Below, piece by piece: positions 7,081 through 42,255 of a stretch of DNA of 64,000 nt. The notes beneath the pieces are model-generated. The model saw nothing but the letters and a program-made list of their open reading frames with translations. It did not search any database and was not told where the DNA came from. The first letter of the stretch is position 1; every line of letters starts with the position of its first letter. This DNA is from Megaleporinus macrocephalus (lineage: Eukaryota; Chordata; Actinopteri; Characiformes; Anostomidae). The stretch covers positions 11,227,667 to 11,291,666 of the forward strand of contig CM038716.1 in NCBI GenBank assembly GCA_021613375.1, given 5' to 3'. The translations under genes and the position numbers were made by a program.

Positions 7081-7559
7081 CAACTAATGAAGACCTTACC
7101 TTCACCTCTAATCTGAGCGGAGGAGCCAGCTACAAGAATGTATGCATGTCATCAAGACCAGGCAATTGCCAGTGGTCCAGATTGACATGGGGACAGAGAA
7201 AATTGTTGGAAAAACAAAGCCAGGACACACGTCCCTCAATAAGCAGATATGATGGCCTGAAACTTGATGGCAGACGTAGCTTGATGCTGTCCAAATACTG
7301 GACCCTCAAAACATACTGTAGTGAAAACAAAGAACCGCTACCTTCAGATAATATATGATCATCTGGACACGCCTGAGAAAATGAACATGAGACTGCATAG
7401 TCCCAACATAGAGTAACTCAGGACAACGGCCATGCCACACAGATCAAAGATGCTGACTAATGACTCCTACTGAATGACGGCCATCCTGAATCACTGGATC
7501 AACTACTAAGAATTGTTGGTCCAAAGATGTCAGGTCCAAAAGAATTCCTTCAGAAGTCT
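7081..7559 (+). other. Possible 5' remainder of the RTE-type LINE
   Basis: Precedes recognisable reverse transcriptase on the same strand and is retained in all three copies. Small ORFs at 7146-7358 (plus) and 7130-7330 (minus) show no clear endonuclease motif. Assignment to the LINE is inference from position. Confidence 0.3.
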
Positions 7560-9023
7560 GGAAGACAATAGGTTGACAAGGGGCTGAGAGCCTCGCAAGC
7601 TCTTCAACCACACCATCCTCGATGACAGCGCACCAGTAACATGGCTGACTAGCACCACTGTTCCCATTTGGAAAAACAAGGTGTTGTCAATGACGCTTCA
7701 AATTCCATCCAGGTCCGTGTGCTGGGCCACTCAATCAGCAAATGTGATGGCCTGATGATGCCGACCTGTTCAAAGCCTACTGCTGTCAACATGAAGAGCC
7801 AAGATCTCCAGAGGACATATGATAATTCCTGATCCGTGTGCTGTGCCACTCATTGTTGTTTGTCAAATGGGTCCTTGACAGGTGCCTCCGAGCCATTGTC
7901 CAAATTTCTCCAATCCTGCTCTTTTTGTGAAGGCTTTTAGCAGCGATGCAATCCACGCTGCCCACTTACTTCTGGAGAAGCATTTGTCCAACAATAGTTC
8001 TCAAATCTGGAAAAGGCTTTCAACCTAGTCTATATAAGCTTATCTGGAGACCGCTCAAAATCCATGGTGTCCTATAAGCCTATGCGCAGTGGTTGTAACT
8101 GCTACAGTGAAACATCTCAAGCATGGTCCAATGCCCAGCAGGAATTCCACCACCTTCCCCATCAACGTTGGAGTACATCAAGGATCCACCCGTTCGCCAC
8201 TATTATTCATCCTGTCCATGAAAATGGCAACGGCAGATGTCCCAAACTCCACATCCTTGTTCAAAGATGATGTGATGGTTACTAACTAATCCTGCCAGGA
8301 CCTTTAAGACCACATATGAAAATGATAATATGGGCTGGATAAAAATGGCATGCGACTCAACATCGAATCCCTCAAACAGCCCATAGACCAATGGCACCAT
8401 CTGTATTGAAGGCCAAGACCTCATCAAAACAATCCAGTTCAAGTACCTTGGCCCCTTGGTGATCTTTCAAGCTGACACATTCACAGGTACCTGAGCCTGA
8501 GTTAGAGTTGTGTGGCTAAAAAGACAGCAAGTCACCACTTGTGCCATAAAACGATGCCAGTCCAACTAAAGGTGAGGATCTACAAGACCTCTGTTCAGCC
8601 AGTTGCACTCTATGAATCTGAATGCTGGCCAGTCTCCACCAAGCATGAACAAACTCTCCATGGGATGGAGATGAAGATGCTGGGGTGGTCACTGAGATGG
8701 TTGGATCTCATAATGAATGTTGACATGGCTCCTGTGGGTCGAGAAAAAAGTTCTGGGTAATGCCAATTACTCAGAAGATGCAGGAGATGGTATGGCCATG
8801 TCAAGCAAAACAAGGAGAACTCGATAGGCCGGACAGCCCTCTGATATGACTCGAGGAGCCCACCACAAGGCTGACCAGAGAAACTCGATCGAGTTACCAG
8901 GAGTCGGTCGGGTGTTGCCCCAGAAAATACCCTTGACCGAAAGAGATGGTAGACGATGTTCAGTTTTGAGGACCCTGAACTAGTGCCGGGAATAACGTCA
9001 GGAACGTAGAAGAAGAAGAAGAT
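7560..9023 (+). pseudogene. Eroded RTE-type LINE reverse transcriptase, copy A
   Basis: Pieces of a non-LTR RT appear in order on the plus strand in changing frames: TVPIWKNK (about 7658), SDAIHAAHLLLEKHLS (about 7940), VGVHQGSTRSPLLFIL (about 8170), a YADD-box remnant LFKDDVM (about 8255, with A replaced by K), and the thumb/C-terminal part IYKTSVQPVALYESECWPVS (about 8580-8640) with EMKMLGW. The WYGHVK block lies near 8790 and a GAAGAAGAAGAAG tail at 9008-9022 marks the 3' end. These blocks are diagnostic for RTE-like elements. Many frameshifts and stops show it is long dead. Confidence 0.8.
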
Positions 9024-9336
9024 TTGGACCTCAAACTGTAAATGAAACTGTGTAGCCCATGAAATTGATCCGAATCGCGTCCAGTATAGGTCACCATCCA
9101 TATTAATTCTGACTAATATGAACTTTTATCCTTAGTGTCGATATTTAGCTTCACGGCATATTTGTAGAAATGAATCCGTTGAGTTTCCTACTTGTCCCGT
9201 TTGGTCGTGTTCGTCCTGTATCTTGGCTCCCATTTCTCTGATTAGTCCTGTCCTTAGTTTGTAAAATCCCTCCAATTAATTTTTGTTCCCTCGATGCCGT
9301 TTGAAGAATTAAATAAAGTCTTCTTCTTCCCTTCCA
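9024..9336. other. 3' flank of the CDK5-activator-like pseudogene, copy A
   Basis: No gene identified. The part nearest 9337, read on the minus strand, resembles the linker that joins the two domains of the intact gene (see 17385-17425). Confidence 0.4.
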
Positions 9337-9989
9337 TCACTGTTCTCCCGTTGGGTCCACCGCATTCCTCAGGTCGGCGAAGACATCTGCAAAAAACTGG
9401 GGGTCGTTGTTGATCTGCAGCATCTTGCCACTCATGCGGTGGATGATGTCCAGCGTCCGCTTCCAGAAGGCCCCTCTGTCCTGCTCCACGAGGAAGGGCA
9501 TGGCAGGGTAGCTGATCTCATGGCCGATGTAGGCGTACGCCACGTAGAAGCAGGTGAGCACCCACGGCCTGCAGTTCCTTCATGCTGGATACCTCCGCTG
9601 AGACGGTGTCTCTGCACAGCATGTACAGGAAGACCACGCTGCCTGGTCCGATGAAGCGGTGACGCTGGCGTTGGCCGAGAAAAAGGACAACGTCTACGAA
9701 GTTGAGCCACATCGGAGGGTCCTCAGGAGAAAGGTCCTCGATCAGGCAGCAACGGCGGCACAAGAATTCACCCAGCAACACGAGGAGCCTCATCGGTGGA
9801 GGCGTCCTTGAGCACCATCTCGTGCGCGCTGGTGGTCTGGTCTGAGAGGACATCTGTGTTGAAGGGTATGGAGCTGGCAGATGGTCCAGGAGCTTCCAAA
9901 GAAGAGCCGCCACCAGGCTGGTGTTTGGTGGTGATGGTAGGCACGGTAACTCCTTCCAGCTTAGTTCCAGAAGCAAGATCCAGGATCTT
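9337..9989 (-). pseudogene. Truncated CDK5-activator-like pseudogene, copy A (second domain only)
   Basis: Minus-strand homology to residues of about 249-464 of the intact two-domain gene at 18815-17421. It begins at the tandem junction (9989), inside the linker, so the N-terminus and first activator domain are missing. Relative to copy B there is an extra C near 9560 (CACCCACGG against CACCACGG) and an extra C near 9788 (GAGCCTC against GAGCTC), which break the frame into pieces of 74 and 177 codons. Recognisable motifs include ISYPAMPFLVEQDRGAFWKR, MSGKMLQINNDPQFF and VFADLRNAV. It has no promoter or start of its own. Both lesions are one-base insertions, so sequencing error is possible for the frameshifts but not for the truncation. 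Confidence 0.9.
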
Positions 9990-10328: not shown

Positions 10329-10366
<38 letters not shown>

Positions 10367-11130: not shown

Positions 11131-13990
11131 TGGTGTTAAACGGACACTGTAGTGGTGACACCAGCTGTGGAGTGCTGGAACCGGCAGGTGAGGTCATGGA
11201 GGTGGCAGTGGTGACGTCTTCATGACGAGGACACAGAGTCTGGAGACGTAGTGGAGCACCTGCTGAAGGATGAACAACTTTCAGTAGACTGTAGCTTTGG
11301 CTTTTTTAAGCATAAACTACTGACATCACAAATTAGGCTAATGTAGAACTTCAGTACTGAATACTGAATCATGTTTCACACCATACGGTTCACTAGTCTA
11401 TTCAATAAATGATCATTTTCATTCATATCTTGTGTTCTTACTACATGAGATGTGTGTGTTGTATCTACACAAGTGTCACAAACCTTCTAAACATCTGCAG
11501 CTGTCGCTCCTCTGGACTCCACACGGTCTGCAGCTGGTGGTGTCTTTAGCTGTGAGAAGGGACGCTGGACCAGGAACCACCTGAAGTAGCTGGACTTGGA
11601 GGGAACTTGGGGTTGGACTGGAGACTTGGGGGAGTCGACAAGCCTAACGGTGGTGGTACCTGTAGTTGAAGGCGCCTCTGCAGTAACCCTGGTTTAGCAG
11701 TGAAACAGAGACTGTAGTGGTGACGCCTTCAGCCGCAGGCAGGACTGCTGGCGCAGCTACAAAGGCTGTAGCCGTGGTGTCGTCAGCTTTGGGCAGGAGC
11801 TGCTGACGCCTGATGTTGGGAGCAGGACCACCTGGCTGCAAGAACGACCTTCTTCTGCTGCGAGAGAACCCCTTTCTGACTGAGCACGACTTCTGTATTA
11901 ACTCAACAACAACAGGCCAACATTTAATAACATATAATAATATGATAATATAAGTTTATACATAATGTAATGTATTGCAGTTATCCTTCAAACACAAGGA
12001 GATGCACCAGAGTGGTGGAACCTTCACTGCCCTACAAGCTGGGGCACTGGAATAGTGCCACCATGTGGATTGGTAGGGTCGTGGCTGTTGAGATAGACTC
12101 TGCTGCGAGCCTGACGATGGTGATGCCTGCAGTTCAGTTCAATACACCACTTCTGCAATGAGGCTGTGGGCAGGAGCTCTAGATTGCTAGGACAGGTACA
12201 AGGGCTGTAATGGTGACACCTGTGCAAGCTGGGTCACTGCACCACCGTCTGGAGTGGGAGGGGCTGTGAGGAAAGACTACCACAGGAACTGCTGCAAGCC
12301 TAACGTGGGTGATGCCCACAGTTGAAGACACCACCTCTCCAGTGACCCTGGTTGCTAATGTGAAACAGAGACTGAAGTGGTGACGCCTTCAGCTGTGAGC
12401 AGGAGCTCTACAGCGCTGGTACCTCCAGGCCTGGACATGAAGACTGCAGTGGTGATGTCCAACCTACATACTTACCTGTGCTGTAAGATGAATGGGCATC
12501 TTTGGCTGTGAGGAGGATCTTCTGTTTTGTAATATTTTAATATGAAAAATATTAAAGTATCAATACTAAAAAAGAAAATACCTGTATATTTACATAGTTA
12601 AACTTGGGCTGGTTTAATGCACAACATTAACAGTACAATTAGACCAATTTAACACACTATGGATTATTAATATTTCAATACATTTGATCCACCAGTGTAT
12701 ACAGTCCACAGATTGAAATTAGGCTGCAAATGTAGAGCTCTTAACCTTTAGCTTTGCTCTTAAGTGTTATATGTTAACTTCAGTGTTCTGGTTAAATATA
12801 ACTTACTGAAACTGGTGCAGGAAGCAAGGACACTGGAGCGGAACAACCTGGAGTAGCTGGACTTGGGGCCTACTGGGGCTGGACTGGGGATTTGGGGGTT
12901 AACAAGTCTAATGGTGATGAAACCGGCAGCTAAAAGAACCGCCTCTGCAGTGACCCTGGTTTAGCAGTGAAACAGAGACTGTAGTGGTGACGCCTTCAGC
13001 CGCAGGCAGGAGTGCTGACCCAGAAACACCTTCACTCCCCCACAAGCTGGGGCACTGGAATAGTGCCACCATGTGGAGTGGCAGGGTCGGTGGCTGTTGG
13101 GATAGACTCTGCTGCAAGGCTGACGGTGGTGATGCCTGCAGTTCAGTTCAAGACACCACCACCTCAAGACCACCACAGGAACTGCTGCAAGCCTAACATG
13201 GATGATGCCCACAGTTGATGACACCACCCCTCCAGTGACCCTGGTTGCTAATGTGAAACAGAGACTGAAGTGGTGACGCCTTCAGCTGTGAGCAGGAGCT
13301 CTACAGCGCTGGTACCTCCAGGCCTGGACATGAAGACTGCAGTGATGATGTCCAACCTACACCTGTGCTAGAAGATGGATGGGCAAAGACTCTGCTGCGA
13401 GCCTAATGGGGGCGATCTCTGGGAACAGAGACTATAGTGGCGACACCTTCAGCCGTGGGCAGGAGTTTGCTGGTGCAGGTATGAAGGCTGTAGTGGTGGC
13501 ACCTACAGACGCTGCAAGATGAACAGCCCTCTTTTGCTGCGAGGAGAATTCTTTCTGACTGAGGACGTTCAGAACTTCACATAATGTTTTAATATTCAAA
13601 CAGACTCACCAAACCAAGTTAGAGTAATGAAAATATCCTTAAACCACCAGTAGATGCACTTAAGCAGTGAAAACTGGTGCAAGCTGAGGTCACTGCGCCA
13701 CCATCTGGAGAGGCAGAGGCTCTGAGGAAAGACATGAAGACCACAGGAACTGCTGCAAGCCTAACGTGGGTGATGCCCACAGTTGAAGACACAACCTCTC
13801 CAGTGACCCTGGTTGTTAATACGAAACAGAGACTGAAGTGGTGACGCCTTCAGCTGTGAGCAGGAGCTCTACAGTGCTGGTACCTCCAGGCCTGGACATG
13901 AAGGCTGTAGTGGTGATGTCTTCAGATAAGGGCTGCGTACCTACCTGCTTACCTTGGCTCTAAGATGAACGACTATCTTGGGCTGTGAGG
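11131..13990. repeat. Degenerate modular repeat array, copy B (longest version)
   Basis: Same modules as 3391-5910. It has an additional block at 12080-12425, including another copy of the CCACAGGAACTGCTGCAAGC to GGACATGAAG segment (12285-12450), so three copies of that segment are present (also 13170-13340 and 13740-13910). The V-V-T-P-S-A-like coding flavour is seen at 11145 (TVVVTPAVE), 11710 and 12980. Confidence 0.65.
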
Positions 13991-15650
13991 AGCATCCTTG
14001 TTAATCAAATACATTGATAACTATTTACACATTTTGTGTAGTCAATATTTCAACACATGCTCCACAAGTACATTCAGTCCATGGACAGAAATTCAGCAGC
14101 AAATGTACAGCTTTGCTATTAAATACTTTATATTAGCTTTCTCAATAAATATAACATACCGTCTATTGAAGGAGCAGCAAAAGGAATACAACATATTGAC
14201 ATATCAATAACAATTAAAACTTTAAGAACCTACAGTGCATTTAAAAAACATTACATAACAATAAAAGTACAGAAATAGCCAATGCAAGATACAGCAGGCA
14301 GTGAAGACACCGTTTTTAAATTTGATGATATTCCAAATCAGTCGAATGGTCCAAATCCAAGGATGCTGAAGGCTCCAGGCTCCTCAAGAGCTTGCTTGAA
14401 AATGCTGCCTCTCTAGAGCTCCTGCAGCTGGAAATGATACCACTCTGGTGCCCCTACTTTTTAAAAGTCCCACCAAAGAAGTGTACCTGCTGCTCTAGTA
14501 GGTTAGTGCTACTGTTTCTGTGTCCACAACTGAAGGCCCACTCCATTGCACCTTTTAACTGGTGTGGATGCTGTTGTTCCAATGACATCACCACTGCAGT
14601 TTCTATGCCTGTTCCTAAAAGTGCCATCACCCTGAAGATTTTCCTCAAGACAGCATGTGCTGCTGCTTCTGCTCACAACTGAAGGCTTTGCCTCTGGTCT
14701 CCATGCTTGTGACTGAAGGTACCCAGTACCTGCCACTCCTGATGTCTGCCACCGATGACTTGAAATCCTTCCTGATGCCTCCACTTTACTACAGGTTACG
14801 TGACTGCATATGGTGGCCCCTGTGATCCTGCTTTGCTGATAGCAAAAGGGTCCAACGTTGGGTGGTAACAGTGCCACACCACTCCATTCACAGTCTCCAT
14901 ATACATACCTGTAGGCAACATGACCATTTCAGAAGTCCTGTTGAATACTGAAAACACATCAACAGCCTGAAGGTACTGCTGCTGTAGATGTCCTGTACAT
15001 AACTGTAGGCATCAATGCTGCACCACTTTCTGTGCCTGAAGCTGAAGATAGCACCACTTCAGCACACAGTCACACTACTACTGTGGTGTCCGGGCTGGTG
15101 CTTGAAGGCACCACAACTCCAGTGCCTCAACTGTGGCTGAAGACATCATCACTTGAAAATTAGAACCAACTAATGAAGACCTTACCTTCACCTCTAATCT
15201 GAGCGGAGGAGCCAGCTACAAGAATGTATGCATGTCATCAAGACCAGGCAATTGCCAGTGGTCCAGATTGACATGGGGACAGAGAAAATTGTTGGAAAAA
15301 CAAAGCCAGGACACACGTCCCTCAATAAGCAGATATGATGGCCTGAAACTTGATGGCAGACGTAGCTTGATGCTGTCCAAATACTGGACCCTCAAAACAT
15401 ACTGTAGTGAAAACAAAGAACCGCTACCTCCAGATAATATATGATCATCTGGACACGCCTGAGAAAATGAACATGAGACTGCATAGTCCCAACATAGAGT
15501 AACTCAGGACAATGGCCATGACACACAGATCAAAGATGCTGACTAATGACTCCTACTGAATGACGGCCATCCTGAATCACTGGATCAACTACTAAGAATT
15601 GTTGGTCCAAAGATGTCAGGTCCAAAAGAATTCCTTCAGAAGTCTGGAAG
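13991..15650 (+). other. AT-rich spacer and decayed Thr/Val/Pro-rich region, copy B
   Basis: Counterpart of 5911-7559 with about two to three percent differences. No intact gene. The 96-codon (14392-14682) and 122-codon (14509-14877, minus) ORFs are preserved only because the DNA is recently duplicated. Confidence 0.5.
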
Positions 15651-17107
15651 ACAATAGGTTGACAAGGGGCTGAGAGCCTCGCAAGCTCTTCAACCACACC
15701 ATCCTCGATGACAGCGCACCAGTAACATGGCTGACTAGCACCACTGTTCCCATTTGGAAAAACAAGGTGTTGTCAATGACGCTTCAAATTCCATCCAGGT
15801 CCGTGTGCTGGGCCACTCAATCAGCAAATGTGATGGCCTGATGATGCCGACCTGTTCAAAGCCTACTGCTGTCAACATGAAGAGCCAAGATCTCCAGAGG
15901 ACATATGATAATTCCTGATCCGTGTGCTGTGCCACTCATTGTTGTTTGTCAAATGGGTCCTTGACAGCTGCCTCCGAGCCATTGTCCAAATTTCTCCAAT
16001 CCTGCTCTTTTTGTAAAGGCTTTTAGCAGCGATGCAATCCACGCTGCCCACTTACTTCTGGAGAAGCATTTGTCCAACAATAGTTCTCAAATCTGGAAAA
16101 GGCTTTCAACCTAGTCCTATATAAGCTTATCTGGAGACCGCTCAAAATCCATGGTGTCCTATAAGCCTATGCGCAGTGGATGTAACTGCTACAGTGAAAC
16201 ATCTCAAGCATGGTCCAATGCCCAGCAGGAATTCCACCACCTTCCCCCATCAACGTTGGAGTACATCAAGGATCCACCCGTTCGCCACTATTATTCATCC
16301 TGTCCATGAAAATGGCAACGGCAGATGTCCAAACTCCACATCCTTGTTCAAAGATGATGTGATGGTTACTAACTAATCCTGCCAGGACCTTTAAGACCAC
16401 ATATGAAAATGATAATATGGGCTGGATAAAAATGGCATGCGACTCAACATCGAATCCCTCAAACAGCCCATAGACCAATGGCACCATCTGTATTGAAGGC
16501 CAAGACCTCATCAAAACAATCCAGTTCAAGTACCTTGGCCCCTTGGTGATCTTTCAAGCTGACACATTCACAGGTACCTGAGCCTGAGTTAGAGTTGTGT
16601 GGCTAAAAAGACAGCAAGTCACCACTTGTGCCATAAAACGATGCCAGTCCAACTAAAGGTGAGGATCTACAAGACCTCTGTTCAGCCAGTTGCACTCTAT
16701 GAATCTGAATGCTGGCCAGTCTCCACCAAGCATGAACAAACTCTCCATGGGATGGAGATGAAGATGCTGGGGTGGTCACTGAGATGGTTGGATCTCGTAA
16801 TGAATGTTGACATGGCTCCTGTGGGTCGAGAAAAAAGTTCTGGGTAATGACAATTACTCAGAAGATGCAGGAGATGGTATGGCCATGTCAAGCAAAACAA
16901 GGAGAACTCGATAGGCCGGACAGCCCTCTGATATGACTCGAGGAGCCACCACAAGGCTGACCAGAGAAACTCGATCGAGTTACAGGAGTCGGTCGGGTGT
17001 TGCCCCAGAAAATACCCTTGACCGAAAGAGATGGTAGACGATGTTCAGTTTTGAGGACCCTGAACTAGTGCGGGAATAACGTCAGGAACGTAGAAGAAGA
17101 AGAAGAT
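15651..17107 (+). pseudogene. Eroded RTE-type LINE reverse transcriptase, copy B
   Basis: Same decayed element as 7560-9023, with the same K-D-D box remnant (about 16345), the IYKTSVQPVALYESECWPVS block (about 16665-16725) and a GAAGAAGAAGAAG tail at 17092-17106. Small indels relative to copy A change which pieces look open. Confidence 0.8.
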
Positions 17108-17420
17108 TTGGACCTCAAGCTGTAAATCAAACTGTGTAGCCCATGAAATTGATCCGAATCGCGTTCAGTATAGGTCACCATCCATATTAATTCTGACTAA
17201 TATGAACTTTTATCCTGAGTGTCGATATTTAGCGTCACGGCATATTTGTAGAAATGAATCCGTTGAGTTTCCTACTTGTCCCGTTTGGTCGTGTTCGTCC
17301 TGTATCTTGGCTCCCATTTCTCTGATTAGTCCTGTCCTTAGTTTGTAAAATCCCTCCAATTAATTTTTGTTCCCTCGATGCCGTTTGAAGAATTAAATAA
17401 AGTCTTCTTCTTCCCTTCCA
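17108..17420. other. 3' flank of the two-domain CDK5-activator-like gene
   Basis: No separate gene. Immediately after the stop codon (minus strand, 17420 down to about 17350) lies sequence resembling the inter-domain linker. No clear minus-strand AATAAA was found close to the stop; the AATAAA at 17395 is on the plus strand. Confidence 0.5.
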
Positions 17421-18815
17421 TCACTGTTCTCCCGTTGGGTCCACCGCATTCCTCAGGTCGGCGAAGACATCTGCAAAAAACTGGGGGTCGTTGTTGATCT
17501 GCAGCATCTTGCCACTCATGCGGTGGATGATGTCCAGCGTCCGCTTCCAGAAGGCCCCTCTGTCCTGCTCCACGAGGAAGGGCATGGCAGGGTAGCTGAT
17601 CTCATGGCCGATGTAGGCGTACGCCACGTAGAAGCAGGTGAGCACCACGGCCTGCAGTTCCTTCATGCTGGATACCTCCGCTGAGACGGTGTCTCTGCAC
17701 AGCATGTACAGGAAGACCACGCTGCCTGGTCCGATGAAGCGGTGACGCTGGCGTTGGCCGAGAAAAAGGACAACGTCTACGAAGTTGAGCCACATCGGAG
17801 GGTCCTCAGGAGAAAGGTCCTCGATCAGGCAGCAACGGCGGCACAAGAATTCACCCAGCAACACGAGGAGCTCATCGGTGGAGGCGTCCTTGAGCACCAT
17901 CTCGTGCGCGCTGGTGGTCTGGTCTGAGAGGACATCTGTGTTGAAGGGTATGGAGCTGGCAGATGGTCCAGGAGCTTCCAAAGAAGAGCCGCCACCAGGC
18001 TGGTGTTTGGTGGTGATGGTAGGCACGGTAACTCCTTCCAGCTTAGTTCCAGAAGCAAGATCCAGGATCTTCTTCTTCCCTTCGGTCATCGTTCTCCCAA
18101 CATGGTCCGCTGCATTCCTCAGGTCGGCGAAGACATCTGCAAACAACTGGGGGTCGTTGTTGATCTGCAGCATCTTGCCACTCATGCGGTCGATGATGCC
18201 CAGCGTCCGCTTCCAGAAGGCCCCTCTGTCCTGCTCCACTAGGAAGGGCACGGCTGGGTAGCTGATCTCATGGCCGATGTAGGCGTACGCCACGTAGAAG
18301 CAGGTGAGCACCACGGCCTGCAGTTCCCTCATGCTGGAAACCTCCGCTGAGACGGTGTCCCTGCACAGCATGTACAGGAAGACCACGCTGCCTGGTCCGA
18401 TGAAGCGGTGACGCTGGCGTCCTCTGACGTAGAGGGACATGTCCACGTTGCTGAGCCACATCGGAGGGTCCTCAGGAGAAAGGTCCTCGACGAGGCTGCA
18501 ACGACGGCACAAGAATTCACCCAGCAACACGAGGAGCTCATGGGTGGAGGCGTCCTTGAGCACCATCTCGTGCGCGCTGGTGGTCTGGTCTGAGCAGACG
18601 TCCGCGTTGAAGCGTGTGGAGCTGGTGGATGGGCCAGGAGCTTCTGAAGAAGGGCCGGTACGCTCGGTAACTCCGTCCAGCTGGTGTACAGGAGCGAGAT
18701 CCATGATCTTCCTTCTCTTGGCTGAAAGAGCTTCCGGCGAGAGAACGCGAGCGCGTCGCTTCTCGGCCCTGGTCCTCTTCTCCTCCTGACCAGGTGATGA
18801 GCGGAGGTGGCTCAT
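17421..18815 (-). CDS. cdk5r-like: Two-domain CDK5 activator-like protein (p35/p39 family), intact copy B
   Basis: A 464-residue intronless frame. Two CDK5-activator domains lie in tandem, about residues 92-237 and 312-458. Each carries family hallmarks: [67 protein letters not shown] and MSGKMLQIN. p35 and p39 use this cyclin-box-like fold to bind and activate CDK5; they are about 300-370 residues with one such domain, so two in one chain is unusual. The linkers (about 35-91 and 248-311) are also homologous, so a unit of about 215 residues was duplicated. The N-terminus has two basic clusters (KRTRAEKRRAR, AKRRK) resembling a nuclear localisation signal and lacks the Gly-2 myristoylation site of p35/p39. 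The ATG has A at -3 (ACC ATG). Domain recognition is firm; CDK5 activation, expression and localisation are inference. Confidence 0.88.
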   Translation of the reverse strand: MSHLRSSPGQEEKRTRAEKRRARVLSPEALSAKRRKIMDLAPVHQLDGVTERTGPSSEAPGPSTSSTRFNADVCSDQTTSAHEMVLKDASTHELLVLLGEFLCRRCSLVEDLSPEDPPMWLSNVDMSLYVRGRQRHRFIGPGSVVFLYMLCRDTVSAEVSSMRELQAVVLTCFYVAYAYIGHEISYPAVPFLVEQDRGAFWKRTLGIIDRMSGKMLQINNDPQLFADVFADLRNAADHVGRTMTEGKKKILDLASGTKLEGVTVPTITTKHQPGGGSSLEAPGPSASSIPFNTDVLSDQTTSAHEMVLKDASTDELLVLLGEFLCRRCCLIEDLSPEDPPMWLNFVDVVLFLGQRQRHRFIGPGSVVFLYMLCRDTVSAEVSSMKELQAVVLTCFYVAYAYIGHEISYPAMPFLVEQDRGAFWKRTLDIIHRMSGKMLQINNDPQFFADVFADLRNAVDPTGEQ

Positions 18816-19214
18816 GGTCCTGTCCTCCTCTGTGATGTGTGGATTGAGTGTTGATGAGTGCTAGTGGAGTAGAATGAAGTGGGGTAAAGTGAAAATGGTA
18901 GCTGAGGAGATAAAAAACAGATAAATATGTTACATCTTTCCTGAAATATCAGTCTGGAATTCTGGTCAGTCTGTATTTTCAGTTGTATGAAGCGAAGGGG
19001 TCACACAGTTACACACATCACTACGTTAAGAAAATCAACAACGTTCTGTATATACGAACAAATATAGAGAAAAATAGAAACCGTGACAAAACATGCACTG
19101 ATACAGGAATTCTGGACCAACGCAGACATACTGTACTTAACACAGCGTCACTCTCCAAAGAAAAACATGTGACACCATGTACTATGTTTATTTTAATTTT
19201 TCTATATTATTTGA
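18816..19214. other. 5' flank of the CDK5-activator-like gene
   Basis: Would contain the 5' UTR and promoter of the minus-strand gene. No TATA box or CpG-dense promoter could be picked out with confidence. The matching region in copy 2 (52785-53180) carries many one-base insertions. Confidence 0.3.
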
Positions 19215-19566
19215 ACTTGACAGCTGCTCTTTATACCCTGTTAAAATTCATTTTCATTCAAAATTTCATGATGAACCGACCAATAGAAATGCTTCAAAAT
19301 AGCTTTGGAAAAATTCTGGTTCCATTGACTTACATTGAAAGTAAAGACAGTTTTTGTCTTCTCCTGTATAGTTAATATTTTAAAGATACTTGTGATTCAC
19401 TCACAGAAACAAGTATCTCTAAAGCGACAACTTTACAGGAGAGGCTGAAAACAGTCTTTACTTTCAATGTAAGTCAATGGAACCAGAATTTTCTCCAAGC
19501 TGTTTTGGAGCATTTCTATTGGTCCGTTCATCATAAATTCGTCATACAATGTAAACGACAACAGCT
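19215..19566. mobile_element. Fold-back element (MITE-like) with about 150-bp inverted arms
   Basis: The left arm (19215-19394) and right arm (19415-19566) are inverted copies. CATTTCTATTGGTC and GTAAGTCAATGGAACCAGAA on the right are matched by their reverse complements on the left. The centre pairs AGATACTTGT (about 19385) with ACAAGTATCT (about 19409). Outer ends share CAGCTG. Single arms of the same family occur at 1985-2105, 30380-30525 and 45029-45150. No coding capacity is seen, so a non-autonomous fold-back or MITE-type element is likely. Confidence 0.75.
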
Positions 19567-20235
19567 GCATTAAAAGGATGTAGAAAAGTCTTCTTCTGTG
19601 AAGACCACAATAAACCAGACGCACCACATCACACAGATTAATATTAGTAATAATATGTATTCTAATAATAAACCTATCAACACTTTCTGTTGAGCTGATT
19701 TAGACTACTGAACCATCATATGATGCTGAAGTTGTGCTGGCTGCTTCATTCTGAGGTGGACATCATGTTATGGTCAAGCAGCTTGTGGATATGAGTGGCT
19801 ACCATGTCGTGTAGCTCCAGTAGAGCTGCATCAGACAAATAACGACAGCTAGGTTTAAAGTGGAGCTGCTAAAACCTCAACAGAGAACAGCTGGTCATCC
19901 AGAGAGAGGAACTGAATCAGCTTTGCTGGAACAGCTGCAGCGTTTGGGCTGTTTTTCTCAGAAGGGTTTGATTTCTGAAGGAGCTGATAAGCCGTCTGAG
20001 GAGCTGCAGGTTTAAAACTCATCATCCAATATCGGTTTACAATATCAGACAAATCTAAGCTTATCATAACTATTATTATGTTCATCTCTGATTTTAACTC
20101 AAATGCAGCTCATTAACACAATTATTATATTAATGTACTGAAATACATGCAGGCCTTTCCAAAGCGCCTATACAGCTGAACAGCAGATCAGATTCCTTAT
20201 AGAGTTCTAAACACTCAACTGAACCAGTAAACAGA
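19567..20235. other. No gene seen
   Basis: Unremarkable sequence. A 76-codon minus ORF (19855-20085) has no domain; its counterpart in copy 2 is a different 104-codon plus ORF because of indels. Confidence 0.5.
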
Positions 20236-20460
20236 TCAATCATAACACTTAAACCAGCATTAACACTTAAACCAGAACTAACACTTAAATCACTACTAAC
20301 ACTTAAACCAGCATTAACACTTAAATCAGCACTAAAACTTAAACCAGCACTAACACTTAAATCAACACTAACACTTAAACCAGTACTAAAACTTAAATCA
20401 CAACGAATCCTTAAATCAGTGGTAAAACTAAAATCAAAACACTTAAATCAGCACACTTCG
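20236..20460. repeat. 18-bp tandem repeat, first block
   Basis: Irregular units of ACACTTAAACCAGCACTA type, period about 18 bp with deletions. Same family as 21003-22136. Confidence 0.9.
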
Positions 20461-21002
20461 AAAATTTAGAAAATTCAAGAAATGGGTGGAATTTCCCTTT
20501 AAACTCAATCAAAACCTTTTATTATAAAGCAACCGTCCACTAGAAACATGATGACCCTCGTGAAGCCCAGTGACGAGACTATCTCTAGTTTGAGATCAGA
20601 CAGCGGAGACGTACAGAACATCTTAAACAGAAAAGACACCAGAAAGCTCAGAAACCCAAACTGTCAATCATCCTGAAGGCTAAAGCATGCTGCCACAGCG
20701 GGCGTGAGAAACGTTCATGGAGCATTTAGATCTTACCTTTGATGGCTTGTGTGCAGAAACAGACAGAAGACATTCACATTTACATTTGGACACAGTTCAT
20801 TCAGAAATCTCAGTAAAAGAACATCATCAGAACCAAATTCACAAAGCAGTGAGAAGAACCATGTAGCTGAGAACCAGAGAACAGCTCCTTCTGATCCACC
20901 AGGACTTCCAGTGATGCTCTGATAGAGAACCCAGAGCTGGAGCTAATGGTGGCTAGAAATGAAGTGATTGGAGGACTAAGAAAGAAAACTGTAGTAAAAT
21001 CA
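20461..21002. other. Single-copy island between two 18-bp repeat blocks
   Basis: About 540 bp without tandem repeats and without a convincing ORF. Present almost unchanged at 54446-54989. Confidence 0.5.
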
Positions 21003-22136
21003 TCAACACTTAAATCAGCACCAACACTTAAATAAACATTAACACTTAAATCAGAAATAACACTTAAATAAACACTAACACTTAAATCAGAACTAACACT
21101 TAAATCAGAACTAACACTTAAATCAGTACTAACACTTAAATCAGAACTAACACTTAAATCAGAACTAACACTTAAATCAGAACTAACACTTAAATAAACA
21201 CTAACACTTAAATCAGAACTAACACTTAAATCAGAACTAACACTTAAATCAGTACTAACACTTAAATCAGAACTAACACTTAAATCAGTACTAATACTTA
21301 AATAAACACTAACACTTAAATCAGAACTAACAATTAAATAAACACTAACAATTAAATAAACACTAACACTTAAATAAACATCAACACTTAAATAAACATT
21401 AACACTTAAATCAGAACTAACACTTAAATCAGCACCAACACTTAAATCAGCACTAACACTTAAATCAGCACCAACACTTAAATCAGCACCAACACTTAAA
21501 TCAGCACTAACACTTAAATCAGAACTAACACTTAAATCAGCACTAACACTTTAATCAGTACTAACACTTAAATCACCACCAACACTTAAATCAGCACTAA
21601 CACTTAAACCAACGCTAACACTTAAATCAGCACCAACACTTAAATCAGCACTAACACTTAAATCAGCACACTTAAATCAGCACTAACACTTAAATCAGCA
21701 CACTTAAATCAGCACTAACACTTAAATCAGCACACTTAAATCAGCACTAACACCTAAACCAGCACACTTAAATCAACATACTTAAATCAGCACTAACACT
21801 TAAATCAGTACACATAAACCAGCACACTTAAATCAACATACTTAAATCAGCACTAACACTTAAATAAGCACTAACACTTCAATCAGTACTAACACTTAAA
21901 TAAGCACTAACACAAATCAGAACTAACACTTAAATCAGTACTAACACTTAAATCAGTACTAACACTTAAATCACCACTAACAATTAAATCAGAACTAACA
22001 CTTAAATCAGAACTAACACTTAAATCAGTACTAACACTTAAATCAGCACTAACACTTAAATCAGTACTAACACTTAAATCAGTACTAACACTTAAATCAG
22101 TACTAACACTTAAATCAGCACTAACACTTAAATTCA
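21003..22136. repeat. 18-bp tandem repeat, main block
   Basis: More than 60 units of AACACTTAAATCAGNACT, with shortened units (CACTTAAATCAGCA) around 21660-21860. As 18 is a multiple of 3, the minus strand reads a hexapeptide repeat LSVS-S/T-D, open for 76 codons at 22137-21907. Stops (TAA from TTTAA-type variants) close it elsewhere, so coding is not supported. Confidence 0.95.
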
Positions 22137-22216
22137 ATATTAATTGTGTACATACACATCATATATAAAATACTGTTTATATATTAAATATTGTTCCTAT
22201 TTAAAGAAACACAAGC

Positions 22217-22255
22217 ATCTCTCTCTCTCTCTCCCTCTCTCTCTCTCCCTCTCTC

Positions 22256-22289
<34 letters not shown>

Positions 22290-22327
22290 CCTCTCTCTCC
22301 CTCTCTCTCTCTCTCTCTCCCTCTCTC

Positions 22328-22367
<40 letters not shown>
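22217..22367. repeat. (CT)n / CTCTCTCC microsatellite
   Basis: About 150 bp of pure pyrimidine CT with CCC interruptions; all frames open, giving SLSLSLPL or ERERER ORFs. Not coding. Confidence 0.95.
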
Positions 22368-22369
<2 letters not shown>

Positions 22370-22379
22370 ACACCCCCCC

Positions 22380-23740
22380 TCCACCCCAGTCCCCGTATGT
22401 AGGAGTGTGTGAGATGTTCTGAATAAGTGTGTGTGACGTCAACGCGGTTTTTCATGCTTTGGGCCCTTTAATACGCTTCATCTGCCCCGAGTTACTGAGA
22501 AGCTCCACAGGATCCCGTTTATTGTGGACTGTGTGCTTAGCGCCCCCTGGTGTCTGACCGATCACACGACACTCAGTACTGAGAAACTGGACCAGCTTCA
22601 AGTTCAGCCTCGTTTCCAGATTTACCGAAGACCTCCATCAGCGCCGTTCAGCGCGTGCAGTACCGAATAACTTCACGACCTGTTCGGGATTCGATCTGAT
22701 TTAATCTGGCGGGTTTAATCTGCTCCAGATCTGCTCGTGAGTGAGTTTAGTGATGATACAGGTGTGTTTCTGAGCGCAGCTGAATAATCCAGCCCAGGTG
22801 AGGCGATTAGTCGATTGTTCATATTCGAATTAGTCCTCAGGCTGGGTGTCGGAGCAGAGCGGAGTGGAAATGAGCTGAATGGAGGAGAGAAAGGAGTGAA
22901 GGACGCTGGAAAGAGAGCAGACCTGCGCTGGACACTCACCTGGATCTGCTGTGAGGAGCTGGAGGTGGAAGTTCTGCTGAGTTTAGGAGAAAAGTTCAGA
23001 GTTGTGTGGAGTCGCTGCTGAGTTTGTTTGGGTTTTCGCTGGTCTGAACGCTGAGGCGATGTTGCCACGGAAACCATGACGTTCAAGATCGAGAGTGAAC
23101 AGATAAACAATAAACGAAATATTTATTAATTTATAGATTATTAATTGTACATTTTAAGTTTTTTTCTTTTTAACATTTGTATCTAAAATTAGTTTCAAAT
23201 AACAATAAACAATGTGTAATAAATACATAATAAAATTGTATAATACTTATTTTTTTCGATTTAGAGAATTTAATTACTTTCAGACAGTTTTATTCTAACA
23301 ATAAACAACTTACACATACAATTCTGATAACAGTGTTTAATATTTTAATCTTTTGATCCTTATTTCATACAATATCTATATGGAACAATACAAGTGCATG
23401 TCATGTTTATATATATGGGATTAAATAAGAACTGTTTTAATTTAAAATGTATTATAAGATTAAACCTATATATATGAAGCTCTCTACGCTCCGTTCTTCA
23501 ACTGATCTGAAGACCACATGAAGTTTGGAGGTGTGCAGTGATGGAGTTGGATACTTTCTGTGTTAATGAGTAATTACTTAATACATACTAATACTTAATA
23601 CTTACTTAATACTTACTTAATACATTTATTAACCCTTTCCAAGCTTCTCCTAAACAACCCAGTATTATTTACAGTTCTCATCTAATACCTGCTTTGACTG
23701 CTCAGTACTTCATTAAGCTAAATCAAGACCTTCACCTACC
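22380..23740. other. Single-copy region: GC-richer block then AT-rich block
   Basis: 22440-23060 is richer in GC and CpG than its surroundings and could hold a promoter or first exon, but no domain was found in the 131-codon minus ORF (22715-23110) or the overlapping 68-codon plus ORF. 23110-23500 is strongly AT-rich. 23528-23735 is a direct repeat of 25445-25640. Confidence 0.45.
22538..22554 (-). promoter_or_regulatory. Candidate CTCF-binding motif
   Basis: TAGCGCCCCCTGGTGTC on the plus strand is almost the reverse complement of the classical CTCF consensus (CCACCAGGGGGCGCTA). Conserved at 56550-56566. It lies at the start of the GC-richer block. Motif match only. Confidence 0.55.
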
Positions 23741-23744
23741 TGTG

Positions 23745-24970
23745 TACAGGTAAACTGTCAAACACTACCTTCACCTACCTGTGTACAGGTAAACTGTAAC
23801 ACTACCCTCACCTACCTGTGTACAGGTAAACTCTAACACTACCTTCACCTACCTGTGTACAGATAAATAGTCTAACACTACCTTTACCTACCTGTGTACA
23901 GGTAAATTCTAACACTACCTTCACCTACCTGTGTACAGGTAAACTCTAACACTACCTTCACCTACCTGTGTACAGGTAAATAGTCTAACACTACCTTTAC
24001 CTACCTGTGTACAGGTAAATTCTAACACTACCTTCACCTACCTGTGTACAGGTAAACTGTCTAACACTACCTTCACCTAGCTGTGTACAGGTAAACTGTC
24101 TAACACTACCTTCACCTACCTGTGTACAGGTAAACTGTCTAACACTACCTTTACCTACCTGTGTACAGGTAAACTGTCTAACGCTACCTTCACCTGCCTG
24201 TGTACAGGTAAACTGTCTAACGCTACCTTCACCTGCCTGTGTACAGGTAAACTGTAACACTACCTTCACCTACCTGTGTACAGGTAAATTCTAACACTAC
24301 CTTCACCTACCTGTGTACAGGTAAATTCTAACACTACCTTTACCTACCTGTGTACAGGTAAATTCTAACACTACCTTTACCTACCTGTGTACAGGTAAAT
24401 TCTAACACTACCTTCACCTACCTGTGTATAGGTAAATTCTAACACTACCTTCACCTACCTGTGTATAGGTAAACTGTCTAACACTACCTTCACCTACCTG
24501 TGTACAGGTAACCTATCTAACACTACCTTCACCTACCTGTGTACAGGTAAACTGTCTAACGATACCTTCACCTACCTGTGTACAGGTAAACTCTACCACT
24601 ACCTTCACCTACCTGTGTACAGGTAAACTTTGTAACACTACCTTTACCTACCTGTGTACAGGTAAATTCTAACACTACCTTCACCTACCTGTGTATAGGT
24701 AAATTGTAACACTACCTTCACCTACCTGTGTACAGGTAAACTGTCTAACACTACCTTCACCTACCTGTGTACAGGTAAACTGTAACACTACCTTAACCTA
24801 CCTGTGTACAGGTAAACTGTCTAACACTACCTTCACCTACCTGTGTATAGGTAAACTGTAACACTACCTTCACCTACCTGTGTACAGGTAAACTGTAACA
24901 CTACCTTCACCTACCTGTGTACAGGTAAACTGTACCACTACCTTCACCTACCTGTATACAGGTAAGCTGT
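23745..24970. repeat. 35-39-bp minisatellite
   Basis: About 33 units of CTACCTGTGTACAGGTAAAC plus a variable T-G-T-C-T-A-A-C-A-C-T-A-C-C-T-T-C-A-C tail; length variants come from loss of TGTC or CTGT. The core is close to palindromic (TACCTGTGTACAGGTA). A remnant, ACAGGTAAACTGTAACTCTA, occurs at 26625-26645. Confidence 0.95.
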
Positions 24971-25214
24971 ACGTCACTCTAGATAAATGCTGTAACTGTA
25001 AATGGAAGAATATATAGTATATTATTTTATTTGCTATTATTATAGAATCTGGATGTTGATGGTAAAATGTGGAAGATCTGAAAATACTAGGTTTTCTTTG
25101 GGGACTATTTGAACCTCACAGCGTCCTGCATGTATCCCTCCACCATGAATGGAGTTTAAGACTGAGATCTTCTCTAAACTATCATAAACAGCGTCTCAGA
25201 ATCAGACAGTGTAT

Positions 25215-25450
25215 TAATAACATCTACTGTAAGAACTTTCTGTGAGGAGTTTTTAGAGGAGGACGTCTGGTTCCATTCACCACCACTGTGAACAGTTCTG
25301 ACTGTATCTAGAACAGAGTGTTTCATATCAGACACGCTGTACAGGAATGACTTTACGTATTAATTCAAATTCCTTTTTGGGAATTACAGTAGAAAGAACT
25401 GATTGGAGAAAAGTTTTATTTAACCAGTAGGTGGCACTGTGGCTGTGTAG
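25215..25450. repeat. Diverged direct repeat (partner at 26670-26855)
   Basis: Both copies share CAGAGTGTTTCATATCAGAC, ATTCCTTTTTGGGAATTACA and CCAGTAGRTGGCACTGTRGC in the same order. The second copy is also preceded by a piece of the 35-39-bp minisatellite, so a larger block was once duplicated. Confidence 0.75.
25424..25438 (+). promoter_or_regulatory. Candidate CTCF-like motif inside the direct repeat
   Basis: CCAGTAGGTGGCACT fits the relaxed CTCF core CCANNAGRNGGCRNT. The partner at 26822-26836 has CCAGTAGATGGCACT. Copy 2 carries it at 59696-59710. A repeat-borne motif; binding is untested. Confidence 0.35.
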
Positions 25451-25640
25451 GTGTGCAGTGATGGAGTTGGATACTTTCTGTGTTAATGAGTTCTTACTTA
25501 ATACAGTAAGTAGAGCTTTTACATACGCCAGTGTGTTTATTAACCCTTTCCAAGCTTCTCCTAAACAACCCAGTATTATTATCAGTTCTCATCTAATACC
25601 TGCTTTGACTGCTCAGTACTTCATTAAGATAAATCAAGAT
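25445..25640. repeat. Direct repeat of 23528-23735 flanking the minisatellite
   Basis: Shares GTGCAGTGATGGAGTTGGAT, TTTATTAACCCTTTCCAAGC and CTGCTTTGACTGCTCAGTAC in the same order. The two copies bracket the 35-39-bp minisatellite. Confidence 0.85.
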
Positions 25641-26485
25641 TTGCTGCTGAAGAACTGATCACATTCATACAATGTCTGGGGCGTCCAGGAGAAATCTGGA
25701 ACCTAACTTTGTTCTTCAAACTGGATCAAGATCTGATCTACTTCTCTCACAATAACATATTCATGTTACTTTGTATTGTATGTCTGATTATTTACATCTG
25801 TTCTAATCAGATCTGCTGTTGCAACAATGTTTCTGTTGTATAAACTGGATCTTACTGGCTTGAACACAGAATGTTACTGTAGAAGTTACAGAACTTCATT
25901 ATCGTGGACCATCACTCATGTACAAAGTGGCTGTTCTGATTGCTGTCTTTTCTATTGGTTAACACAGTGATGGGATTGGTGGGAGGGGCACTTCTGAGAC
26001 TTAAAGCTGCAGTACACAATTCTGCAGAACATTCCTTGATATTTGAGCTCCGCCCCAAAACAAACACGCCCCTCCCTTCAGAAGCTCCACCCCCCAAATT
26101 CATGGACACACATTCCCAGAGCAAATGAAACTGAACTAGCATAGTTGGCTGTTTAGACCTTCATAGCCAGAAGCCCTTCGTCCCCTGAATAACATTATAT
26201 ACTATAATACTGCATAACACTCTGACCAATCAGAGCACTCCCTTCTGTCCATGTTATAGTGACTGACTCCCACCATCACGTTCATCATGACAGAACAGAA
26301 AGCAGTAATCTAAACCAAACACTTTTTAATAGTGAGATCAAGTCCAAATCCAGCGGAAGTGCTTTTCCACATTTTATAGCATCATCTTTGTAGTTCAAAA
26401 ACATAAACACATAAACAAACACAAGAACTATAGCAGGAAGTAACACTGTAGATAAACACAATATAAAATCACAATAGTAAAATAT

Positions 26486-26488
<3 letters not shown>
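25641..26488. other. No gene seen
   Basis: Single-copy sequence apart from the duplication. The overlapping small ORFs near 25912-26142 have no domain. Confidence 0.5.

Positions 26489-26530
<42 letters not shown>
26489..26530. repeat. (CA)n microsatellite
   Basis: About 20 CA pairs; about 5 pairs longer in copy 2 (60762-60812). Confidence 0.95.
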
Positions 26531-26532
<2 letters not shown>

Positions 26533-27031
26533 ATGTAGAATACAGTAATTATCTTAACAAACCATATTACAACATATCAAATACAACATATCAGCTTCTT
26601 ACTGGAAACCCATACGATACACATACAGGTAAACTGTAACTCTACCTTCACCTACCAGGTCAACTGTATCACCCTCTACTGTAATAACCGTCTGTGAGGG
26701 AGCTTTTCAGAGTGTTTCATATCAGACACTCTGTATGTGAATGACTTTACTCAAATTTCACTCCAATTCCTTTTTGGGAATTACAGTAAAAAGAACTGTT
26801 TGTCAGAAAGTTTTAATTCAACCAGTAGATGGCACTGTAGCTGTGTAGAAGAAGTTTATAGGCCCAGGACTAGAGTTCTGTTCTGATCTTTACAGTCTGG
26901 CTTTGCCTGATTCTAATCCCACCTGCTTCGTCGTCTGAATTAAGTGGGACTCTACAAAACCTACAAAACCCAAAAACACTTCAAAACCCAAAAAACAACG
27001 AAAGCAGTTCAACATGTCATCGCGGTCCAAA

Positions 27032-27939
27032 GTCAAGTCAAGTCAAGTCAATTTTATTTATATAGCGCTTTTTACAACGATGTTGTCTCAAAGCAGCTTT
27101 ACAGAGTTTTGAAAAGACAGTTATAACATATACCCCCCAGTGAGCAAGCCAGAGGCAACAGTGGCAAGAACACCTCCCTCAGACTGGAGGAAGAAACCTT
27201 GGGAGGAACCAGACTCACAAGGGGAGACCCATCCTCCTCTGATCAAAGAGTATTTACAGTTTAAACTAAATACCAAAGAAAGGAGTCTCTGTTTGAAATC
27301 TGGATAGCAAAGCTTTAGAAGCTGCACAGATAGAGGCAGTGTATGACTGAGGCAGTCTCTGGCTGAGGCAGTCTATGACTGAGGCAGTCTCTGGCTGAGG
27401 CAGTCTATGACTGAGGCAGTCTATGACAGTCTTTATGTAAAGTGGGCGTGAGCTGAAACAGTCCCATCCTATCTCAGTGCTGGTGCATCTGGATGGCACA
27501 GTGATGTAACTGAGGGTGTAGCAGTAAATGGACAGGTGAGCTGGCTGGTGATGGTGGGGAGGTTAGCTGGCTGGTGATGGTGGGGTGATGGCCCGATGAT
27601 CAGTCCTTTAACAGCCTTCAACAGACAGGAGGACAGTCATTACCTCAGGAAGAGTAAAGAGAGAGAGTGAGTTGGGCTCGGGAGTGAGACTGTAGAGAAT
27701 ATGAATTTTCAGAATTTTAGAGTGAGGCTGGCGACTCCGGCAGATCTAACTATAACAGCCTAAACTAAAAGGAGAGAACCAGAAGGTAACATGGACATGA
27801 GAGTACCCTGAGACACTGGGGTCCCACCACTCCACCATCAACAAACCTGTGTGATCGCGTGAAGTGGTGGAACAACAGCACCAACATCTCAGTTTACCAT
27901 AAACCTCTGTGTCCAAGAACCCCCAGATCTCCTGCCTTT
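27032..27939 (-). mobile_element. 3' UTR and tail of an L2-type LINE, copy 1
   Basis: The minus strand ends with GTTGTAAAAAGCGCTATATA then AATAAAATTGACTTGACTTG, the typical 3' terminus of teleost L2-type LINEs, whose short tandem tail (here TTGAC repeats at 27031-27050) is used for target-primed reverse transcription. A small tandem of TGAGGCAGTCTATGACTGAG type lies at 27335-27430. Confidence 0.85.
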
Positions 27940-30365
27940 ATCTAAAAGAGAAGATTAATAACCAAAAGCTACTAAACAAGTATGTTTTTAGTCTAGACTT
28001 AAATATTGAGACTGTGTCAGAGTCCAGAACATTAACTGGGAGATTATTCCACAGTTTGGGGGCTTTGTAGGAAAAAGCTCTTCCCCTCATTGTAGTCTTC
28101 TGAATTTTAGGAACTATTAGAAAACCAGCATCCTGTGATCTGAGTGAACGTGGCGGTTCATAATAGGAGATTAGATCTTGCAGGTTCTCCGGTGTGAGAC
28201 CGTGCAGGGTTTTATACGTCAGTAAAATAATTTCATAGTGGATACGGAATTTAACAGGAAGCCAGTGTAGCTGATAAAACTGGACTGATGTGATGGAAGG
28301 TTCTGGTTTTAGTTAGTACTCTAGCTGCAGCGTTCTGAACTAACTGAAGTTTATTCAGGTTCCTGCTGGAGCATCCTGACAATAATGCATTACAGTAATC
28401 TAGACTTGAGGTTATAAAGGCATGTACTAACTTCAGACACAGCATCAGACACAGATAACACATTTCTTAACTTTGAAATGTTTCGTAGGTGAAGAAACGC
28501 TGTTCTTGTAATGTTACCGATGTGTTGATTAAATGTCAGATCTGAGTCAATTGTTACACCAAGATTTTTAACTACTGAACCAGGAACTACAGAGAAATCA
28601 TCAAGATTTAACATTAAATCTGAACATTTAGTCCGAGCAGCCTTTGGGTCGAGGAGGAGAACTTCCGTTTTATCTGGGTTTAAAAGAAGGAAGTTCTGTA
28701 GCATCCAAAGTCTAATATCTCTTACACAATCTTCTATCTTATCTAATCTGGATTTATCATCTGGTCTGATATGTACAGCTGTGTATCATCAGCATAACAG
28801 TGGAAACTAATTCCATGTCTATTTATAACTGAGCCTAATGGTAGCATATATAGTGTAAATAACAGAGGACCTAAAACAGAACCTTGTGGAACTCCATATT
28901 TCACTTTTGTATAATTAGACGATACATTATTAATCTTTACAAACTGAAAGCGATCACTAAGGTAAGATGTGAACCAGGATAACGCTGTTCCTGTGATTCC
29001 AACTATATTTTCTAGCCTGTCCAAGAGAATAGTGTGATCTATAGTGTCAAAAGCTGCACTTAGATCGAGTAACACCAGTAGAGATACGTGGTCCTGATCA
29101 GAGACAAGAAGAAGATCATTTGTTATCTTAACTAAAGCTGTCTCTGTGCTGTGATGTGGCCTAAAACCAGATTGGAATTTTTCATATATGTTGTTCTTAT
29201 GTAGATGAGAACAGAGTTGTCGAGCTACAGCCTTTTCTAAAATCTTAGAGATAAAAGGTAAATTGGAAATGGGTCTATAACTGGACAGTTCTCTGGGGTC
29301 AAGATTTGGTTTCTTTATCAAGGGTTTTATCACAGCTAGTTTAAAAGACTTAGGTACATGACCCAGACTAAGAGAAGAGTTGATGATAGTTAAGGTTTAA
29401 TAATAGCTGGTAATACTTGTTTCAATAGGCTTGTTGGAATCATATCGAGTGTGCATGTAGCAGAATTTGAAGAAGAGATAAGTTTTTCTAGTTCTGTCTG
29501 CTGGAGTGGACAGAATGTTTCTAGTGTTTCTTCTAAAATCACATTTTGTGCTGTTTGAGCCAAACCAGATGAAGGATAGGTTACTCGTATTGGTAGAACT
29601 TTTTGTCTAATATTCTCGATTTTGCTATTGAAAAAGTCCATGAAATCATTGCTGCTGTGGTTGGCGGGTATTTGAGGTTCAGATCCTGCCTGATTTTTGG
29701 TAAGTTTTGCGATGGTGCTAAATAAAACTCTAGGATTGTTTTTGTTGTGTTCGATGAGTGTGGACAGGTATGCTGAGCGTGTTTTAATAAGTGCCTTTCT
29801 GTAAATGCTAAGGCTGTCCTTCCAAGCAGAGTGAAATACCTCTAGCTTGGTCACTCTCCATTTGCGTTCTAATTTCCGTACTGTCTGTCTTAAGGTGCGT
29901 ACTTCATTGTTGTACCACGGAGCGAGCTTTTTTTGTTGCATCTTTTTAATTTTTATAGGTGCAACGTTGTCTAAAGTTAGTCGGAGCGTATTTTCTACGC
30001 AGTCAGTTAGTCTGTCTAGCTCGGTTGGGTCTGATGATGGAAAAATTATGGTTGATAAATCTGGAAGAGTTTCAATAAAGTTCTGAGATGTATTTGGCAT
30101 TATTGAACGTTTCATGCAATAACGGGGTGTACATACATTTTTACTAAGACTCAATTCATATGAAATTAGGTAGTGATCTGAAACTACTGAAGTCTGTGAG
30201 TAAGATTATGTATATCAACACCTAAAGTCAAAACTAGATCTAGTGTGTGATTACAGGAATGTGTAGGTCCTATTACATTCTGAGTGAGACCTATAGAGTC
30301 TAAGATGAGAAAGCCTTTTTTAATGGATCTGCTGAGTTTTCAAAGTGAATATTAAAATCTCCTGC
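27940..30365 (-). pseudogene. 5'-truncated L2-type LINE ORF2, copy 1
   Basis: Reading down the minus strand: the end of the endonuclease (GDFNIHFENSADPL near 30360, then frameshifted), the endonuclease-RT linker (30154-29390), the RT core (29333-28743: [61 protein letters not shown], and the catalytic [10 protein letters not shown]), then the thumb and C-terminal part (LNPDKTEVLLLDP, FITSSLDYCNALLSG, RSLRSQDAGFLI, RAFSYKAPKLWNNLP, to about 27940). Frameshifts near 29395, 28760 and 28450 break it. It is truncated at 30365 inside the endonuclease, as is usual for LINE insertions. Dead copy. Confidence 0.9.
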
Positions 30366-39677: not shown

Positions 39678-39679
39678 AT

Positions 39680-39832: not shown

Positions 39833-39839
39833 TCGGGCA

Positions 39840-41530: not shown

Positions 41531-42255
<725 letters not shown>

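Follow-up and report, generated by a model that had tools for sequence, protein, structure and literature searches.

A two-domain CDK5-activator-type gene in Megaleporinus macrocephalus and its multi-domain paralogs

We report that a 64,000-nucleotide stretch of the Megaleporinus macrocephalus genome (C15:11227667-11291666), referred to as the window, contains a gene in which two CDK5-activator domains are read in a single open frame (copy A; Table 1). To our knowledge, the CDK5 activators described so far pair one domain with one kinase. The evidence supports copy A as a genuine gene of the CDK5-activator type with two domains, functional now or until recently. Three further intact genes were found elsewhere in the genome, two with two domains on C13 (L009 and L010) and one with three domains on C8 (L011), which brings the four intact genes to nine domains; we consider it very probable that they form a real, selected multi-domain CDK5-activator gene family.

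Table 1. Features of the window, numbered from its first nucleotide, and related loci in the genome, given with their contigs
Feature	Position	Strand	Remarks
Copy A, two CDK5-activator domains	17421..18815	-	464 aa, ATG to TGA, single frame
N-terminal segment of copy A	18573..18815	-	MSHLRS start, two basic clusters, LSPEAL; p10 region of p35 missing
D1 of copy A	18102..18572	-	predicted p25-like cyclin fold, residues 82-238
Linker of copy A	17907..18101	-	fusion joint inside
D2 of copy A	17436..17906	-	predicted p25-like cyclin fold, residues 304-460
Splice-acceptor-like ctgttttttatctcctcag	18902..18920	-	ends at 18902, 87 bases before ATG
Copy B	9340..9989	-	truncated, linker and D2 only
Copy C	51374..52782	-	two-domain gene with several frame-breaking indels
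Tandem duplication, 7.7 kb	2264..9989	.	three aligned pieces; partner 9991-18071
Duplicated stretch	12833..29717	.	partner 46774-64000; spacing ~34 kb; cut by window end
Intact two-domain gene	C13:105475-106881		468 aa, no internal stops, TGA end
Intact two-domain gene	C13:120903-122315		470 aa, no internal stops, TGA end
L011, intact three-domain gene	C8:47479185-47481257		690 aa, no internal stops, TGA end
L012, two-domain copy	C15, 7.33 Mb		frame broken
L013, partial copy			broken or truncated
Single-domain or fragmentary loci	C27 (two), C2, C8, C9
Four canonical p35/p39-type genes	C14, C18, C2, C3		one domain each, MGTVLS start, one open frame

An earlier note on this DNA had proposed, without naming a strand, that one 464-residue frame holds two full CDK5-activator domains, and this is borne out on the minus strand. 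The Pfam profile PF03261 matched the copy A protein in two stretches with 408.5 bits (cut-off, 25), the best of which starts at profile position 175 of 336. All five sequence blocks listed in that note, SGKMLQIN included, are present in both D1 and D2, which have 139/156 residues and 436/468 nucleotides in common. A PDB sequence search with copy A returned, at E ≤0.001, solved p25 chains only (4 distinct sequences). The resemblance is not a matter of chance: p25 chains match at E 6e-56, and the architecture recurs at other loci in the genome. The MGxxxS start and p10 region of p35 are absent, and serine replaces the membrane-anchor (myristoylation) glycine; the intact multi-domain paralogs also start with MSH. 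The description of the gene as single-exon holds for the coding part but not as a special trait, since the four canonical p35/p39-type genes of this genome also consist of one open frame.

To place copy A among known activators, we used a comparison set of 144 proteins, made up of the best 120 of 293 matches and 24 more among the 98 of a second search. The nearest relatives among the matches listed were characiform fish proteins, and the best Prochilodus magdalenae domain listed was 81% identical to D2. In a tree of 42 rows, 39 of them chosen from the 144 proteins and three from the window, a 25-row clade separate from p35 (100/99) was made up of 22 fish proteins and the three window domains; within it, the window domains grouped with proteins from P. 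magdalenae, Colossoma, and Pygocentrus (96/95). This p25-like family occupies a long, fast branch distinct from p35; its members are without the p10 part, and some retain an MGHVFS or MGHVSS start, the counterpart of the MSHLRS of copy A. On each of three marks of p35/p39 orthology (the p10/MGxxxS start, grouping with canonical proteins in the tree, and a single domain), copy A departs from p35 and p39, and the four canonical genes exist apart from the multi-domain genes in the same genome.

Single-domain "CDK5 activator 1-like" proteins from P. magdalenae (P0001/P0121), Colossoma (P0122), and Pygocentrus (P0123) share the clade of the window domains, and Astyanax P0128 is a more distant relative. 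The Prochilodus and Colossoma rows resemble the window family in their short basic N terminus with an LSPxALSAxRRK-type motif. However, these characiform rows each have one near-complete domain, in every row examined, and several have an MG start. Among the 144 proteins (the best 120 of 293 matches and 24 more), none had two near-complete domains of >100 positions each; P0010 and P0011 have two partial stretches each. As a separate observation, characiform fish carry a fast-evolving expansion of p10-less CDK5-activator-like genes (P0001 to P0008 and P0121 to P0139), with at least nine Astyanax rows of the p10-less family among the matches listed. In the titles and abstract openings of the matches listed, we found no description of this expansion, and none of CDK5R1/CDK5-activator duplication in fish or of tandem activator domains.

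Both domains of copy A are predicted to adopt the cyclin-like fold of p25. The AlphaFold model, built with 28 sequences, had a mean pLDDT of 66.6 at full length, with ten-residue block means of 64-96 in D1 and 46-82 in D2 and low confidence in the linker and N terminus; D2 modeled alone reached block means of 67-97. For D2 alone, the Foldseek matches to 7vdp_C, 1ung_D, and 1h4l_D had TM scores by target length of 0.96-0.97, with 59-60% identity; the full-length model matched these chains through one domain (D1 or D2 unspecified), at TM 0.95-0.97 and 60% identity. The best match, 7vdp_C, had E values of 8.0e-14 for D2 alone and 1.3e-11 for the full-length model.

Residues at the kinase interface were compared across 144 rows, of which 108 were canonical, 23 were family proteins picked from database searches, and 13 were in neither set. 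Part of one published study (PMC11031989) describes L262 and I265 of p25 as touching the PSSALRE helix of CDK5 and p25 as binding more stably. The equivalents of these residues are L and I in all nine domains of the four intact genes. Position 265 is I in 108/108 canonical rows and T, A, or S in 23/23 picked family proteins, a further difference between the window family and the characiform "CDK5 activator 1-like" rows. Isoleucine at 265 is not tied to the domain array, since L015, a single-domain locus in this genome, has it too. E240 and L289, which we take to be kinase-contact positions, are likewise retained in 9/9 array domains.

Based on the sequences and predicted models, we lean toward the reading that this is a p25-like family whose activator domain has been repeated in frame, that each domain docks CDK5, and that the chain is polyvalent, and we hold it to be somewhat probable. 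The family would be lineage specific, with the domain repeated two or three times. Because there is no p10 part and no N-terminal glycine, and because basic clusters are present, the protein would be soluble or nuclear rather than membrane bound. Every domain would dock on the C-helix of CDK5, or of a closely related CDK, in the way p25 does, and a single chain would then be able to hold two or three active kinases.

The main rival to this reading is that the fold has been kept but normal CDK5 activation lost, with the protein binding another CDK or binding CDK5 without activating it, as a multivalent decoy against p35 and p39. We judge this unlikely but worth serious weight. Among positions conserved in canonical p35, 37/118 are changed in D1 and 38/118 in D2, and the family branch is long, fast, and apart from p35. 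D259K and N239H are found in 9/9 array domains; position 259 is D in 105/108 and N in 3/108 canonical rows and K or R in 21/23 family proteins. We assume that D259, N266, and S270 are CDK5-contact residues, and a literature search for contact roles of the three returned no support, as did one on other residues. N266 and S270 vary even among canonical p35 rows, so only D259 is kept, as a caution. Weighing against an altered partner or decoy role, L262, I265, E240, and L289 are retained in all nine domains (the last two being presumed contacts), and within copy A neither D1 nor D2 looks the poorer of the two. The nearly equal divergence of D1 and D2 from canonical p35 gives no sign of one dead domain, and the suggestion that one of the two acts as a dead decoy was dropped as unsupported.

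Compared with CDK5R1 p35/p25 (PF03261; PDB 1H4L, 1UNG, and 7VDP), then, the window family is alike in its ~60% identity per domain, its predicted fold, L262 and I265, and a coding part in a single frame. It differs from p35 in having two to three domains per chain, no p10 region, no myristoylation glycine, D259K and N239H, and a separate fast-evolving clade. Cyclins also have two cyclin folds within one chain, but the kinase-docking surface of an ordinary cyclin is not known to recur in its second fold, whereas each repeat in the window family nearly copies the entire p25 activator domain. Cleavage by calpain that removes p10 turns p35 into the over-active fragment p25, and p25-like activators are linked to neurodegeneration in mammals. 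A vertebrate appears to encode p25-like proteins as ordinary genes, with two or three activator domains joined under selection. This raises the questions of whether CDK5 activation can be multivalent and of how a fish copes with activators of the p25 type, given their mammalian link to neurodegeneration.

The paralogs were identified by a PF03261 profile search of the 1.28-Gb chromosome-scale genome (100 contigs), which gave 26 match rows, several per gene. The step from domain to domain is 666 bp (222 codons) in 5/5 steps across the four intact genes, so the number of domains can change without loss of frame. In L011, the first and second units are identical at 635/666 sites, and D2 and D3 are 99.1% identical and sisters in the DNA tree. 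Domains of the other loci cluster by position in this tree (D1s, 100/99; D2s, 99/96), and D1 and D2 of copy A fall together outside the nine-row group formed by the domains of the other loci (99/100). This pairing could reflect within-gene homogenization or two independent fusions; we prefer homogenization. The linkers of copy A and L009 align with one 3-base gap, which makes a single ancestral fusion the simplest reading. More tentatively, and in our view doubtfully, the coding array may act as a tunable scaffold evolving by unequal crossing-over, in which the number of 666-bp repeats sets the number of CDK5 molecules held per soluble activator. Multi-domain members, with counts so far of two or three domains, are possibly copy-number variable between alleles. 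The C13 pair (105475-122315) lies <125 kb from the start of a 45-Mb contig and is possibly subtelomeric.

The joint itself is visible within copy A. The final part of D1 aligns to that of D2, and the match carries on over the start of the 3'UTR as far as the purine tract gggaagaagaaga (18068-18080, minus strand), which lies in the linker, is common to the 3'UTR after D2, and resembles the 5' coding region. Past this tract, the D1 side is the homolog of the 5' coding part (the AKRRKIMDL region), and the former TGA stop is shifted out of frame there by a small length difference just ahead of it. The alignment at the joint indicates a repeat unit that begins with the 5' coding part, continues through the domain and the former stop, and takes in a little of the 3'UTR. 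The domain would have been repeated in frame by unequal exchange or tandem duplication. Upstream of the ATG, the strongly acceptor-like ctgttttttatctcctcag is conserved at L009, L010, and L011 except for the length of its T run, which suggests a putative non-coding exon before the ATG.

The earlier note held that the frame is or was recently functional and took a dN/dS near 1 as grounds for rejecting this. Over the full length, copy A and L009 differ with a dS of 0.244 and a dN of 0.137, giving a dN/dS of 0.56 (bootstrap, 0.42-0.80); the ratio is 0.57 (0.40-0.76) between copy A and L010 and 0.46 (0.20-1.07) between L009 and L010. Each domain compared at the same position in copy A and L009 also falls below 1, at 0.53 (0.31-0.94) for D1 and 0.36 (0.20-0.55) for D2. 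In the comparison of copy A with L009, 0/5 coding indels and 17/20 flanking indels are frame breaking (Fisher p 0.001), and with L010 the counts are 0/4 and 16/20 (p 0.007). The last 9 codons, which lie outside the domain, read NAVDPTGEQ in copy A and LQRTMLGRQ in L009 to L011; these unlike tails may be a pair of compensating one-base indels concealed by the gapless alignment. A dN/dS of ~0.56 is a sign of moderate constraint only. With the doubtful ~9-codon tail set aside, the claim of present or recent function is supported, beyond the open frame itself, by the upper bound of 0.80, the lack of frame-breaking coding indels, and the three other intact genes; purifying selection appears to have left its signal along the whole fused frame and in each domain.

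Comparisons between repeat positions behave differently from those at the same position. Within copy A, D1 versus D2 gives a dN/dS of 0.56 (0.27-1.37), indistinguishable from 1 (binomial p 0.10); with too few changes, this pair was dropped as a test of function and the paralog comparison used instead. At and between the other loci, D1 against D2 or D3 positions give ratios of 0.62-2.9, seven of them >1, on 3-5 synonymous changes only. The highest are L009 D1 against L011 D2 and D3 (2.7 and 2.9, bootstrap bounds >1), and L010 D1 and L011 D1 against L011 D2 and D3 give 1.4-1.7, without bootstraps. Such ratios could reflect mosaic exchange or specialization of the repeat positions. Same-position pairs look constrained and several between-position pairs lie near or above 1; specialization of the D1 and D2 positions may already be under way.

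These results also bear on whether the genes are a recently decaying, segmentally duplicated family without present function, the intact copies being survivors, which we regard as improbable. In its favor, breaks or truncations affect copies B and C as well as L012 and L013, the dN/dS is moderate, and the duplications are recent, at 0.2-2.7% substitution divergence across the compared blocks of the window. Decay is nevertheless hard to reconcile with four intact multi-domain frames, a dN/dS bounded at 0.80, and coding indels that, as aligned, always come in multiples of three, against 17/20 flanking indels that do not. In a neutral simulation of one lineage (5000 runs), moreover, the frame stayed free of stops in a fraction of 0.0214 of runs with 0.10 substitutions per site and 0.0056 of runs with 0.125.

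One breakpoint of the 7.7-kb duplication falls in the linker of copy A, near the fusion joint, and copy B differs from copy A by 0 substitutions and two one-base insertions over ~640 bp. In the left block shared by copies A and C, 35/39 one-base indels lie within 3 kb around the gene (51374-53800, in and upstream of copy C), a crowding that makes consensus error and decay both possible; copies B and C may be assembly artefacts. That copy A itself is such an artefact, from the collapse of two single-domain genes into a single frame, as the earlier note had allowed, or from allelic copies placed in tandem, is very improbable, and the collapse was rejected, despite the near-identical tandem copies and crowded indels, since D1 and D2 differ at 32/468 sites and the 666-bp fused unit recurs intact, with the same joint, on two other chromosome-size contigs.

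Several other elements of the window were noted. An 18-bp minisatellite lies ~2 kb upstream of the gene, at 20995-22143 and again at 54985-56130; similar arrays match at no fewer than five paralogous loci (at least L009, L010, L012, L013, and L015), so the minisatellite may belong to a dispersed unit. A short gypsy-type element at 39259-41951 has terminal repeats of ~418 bp (39259-39676 and 41534-41951; 97.4% identical) with an integrase frame between them at 39691-41130. LINE-type frames at 28743-30154 and 63025-63615 were copied by the duplication with ~34-kb spacing, the former with a reverse transcriptase domain at 28743-29333.
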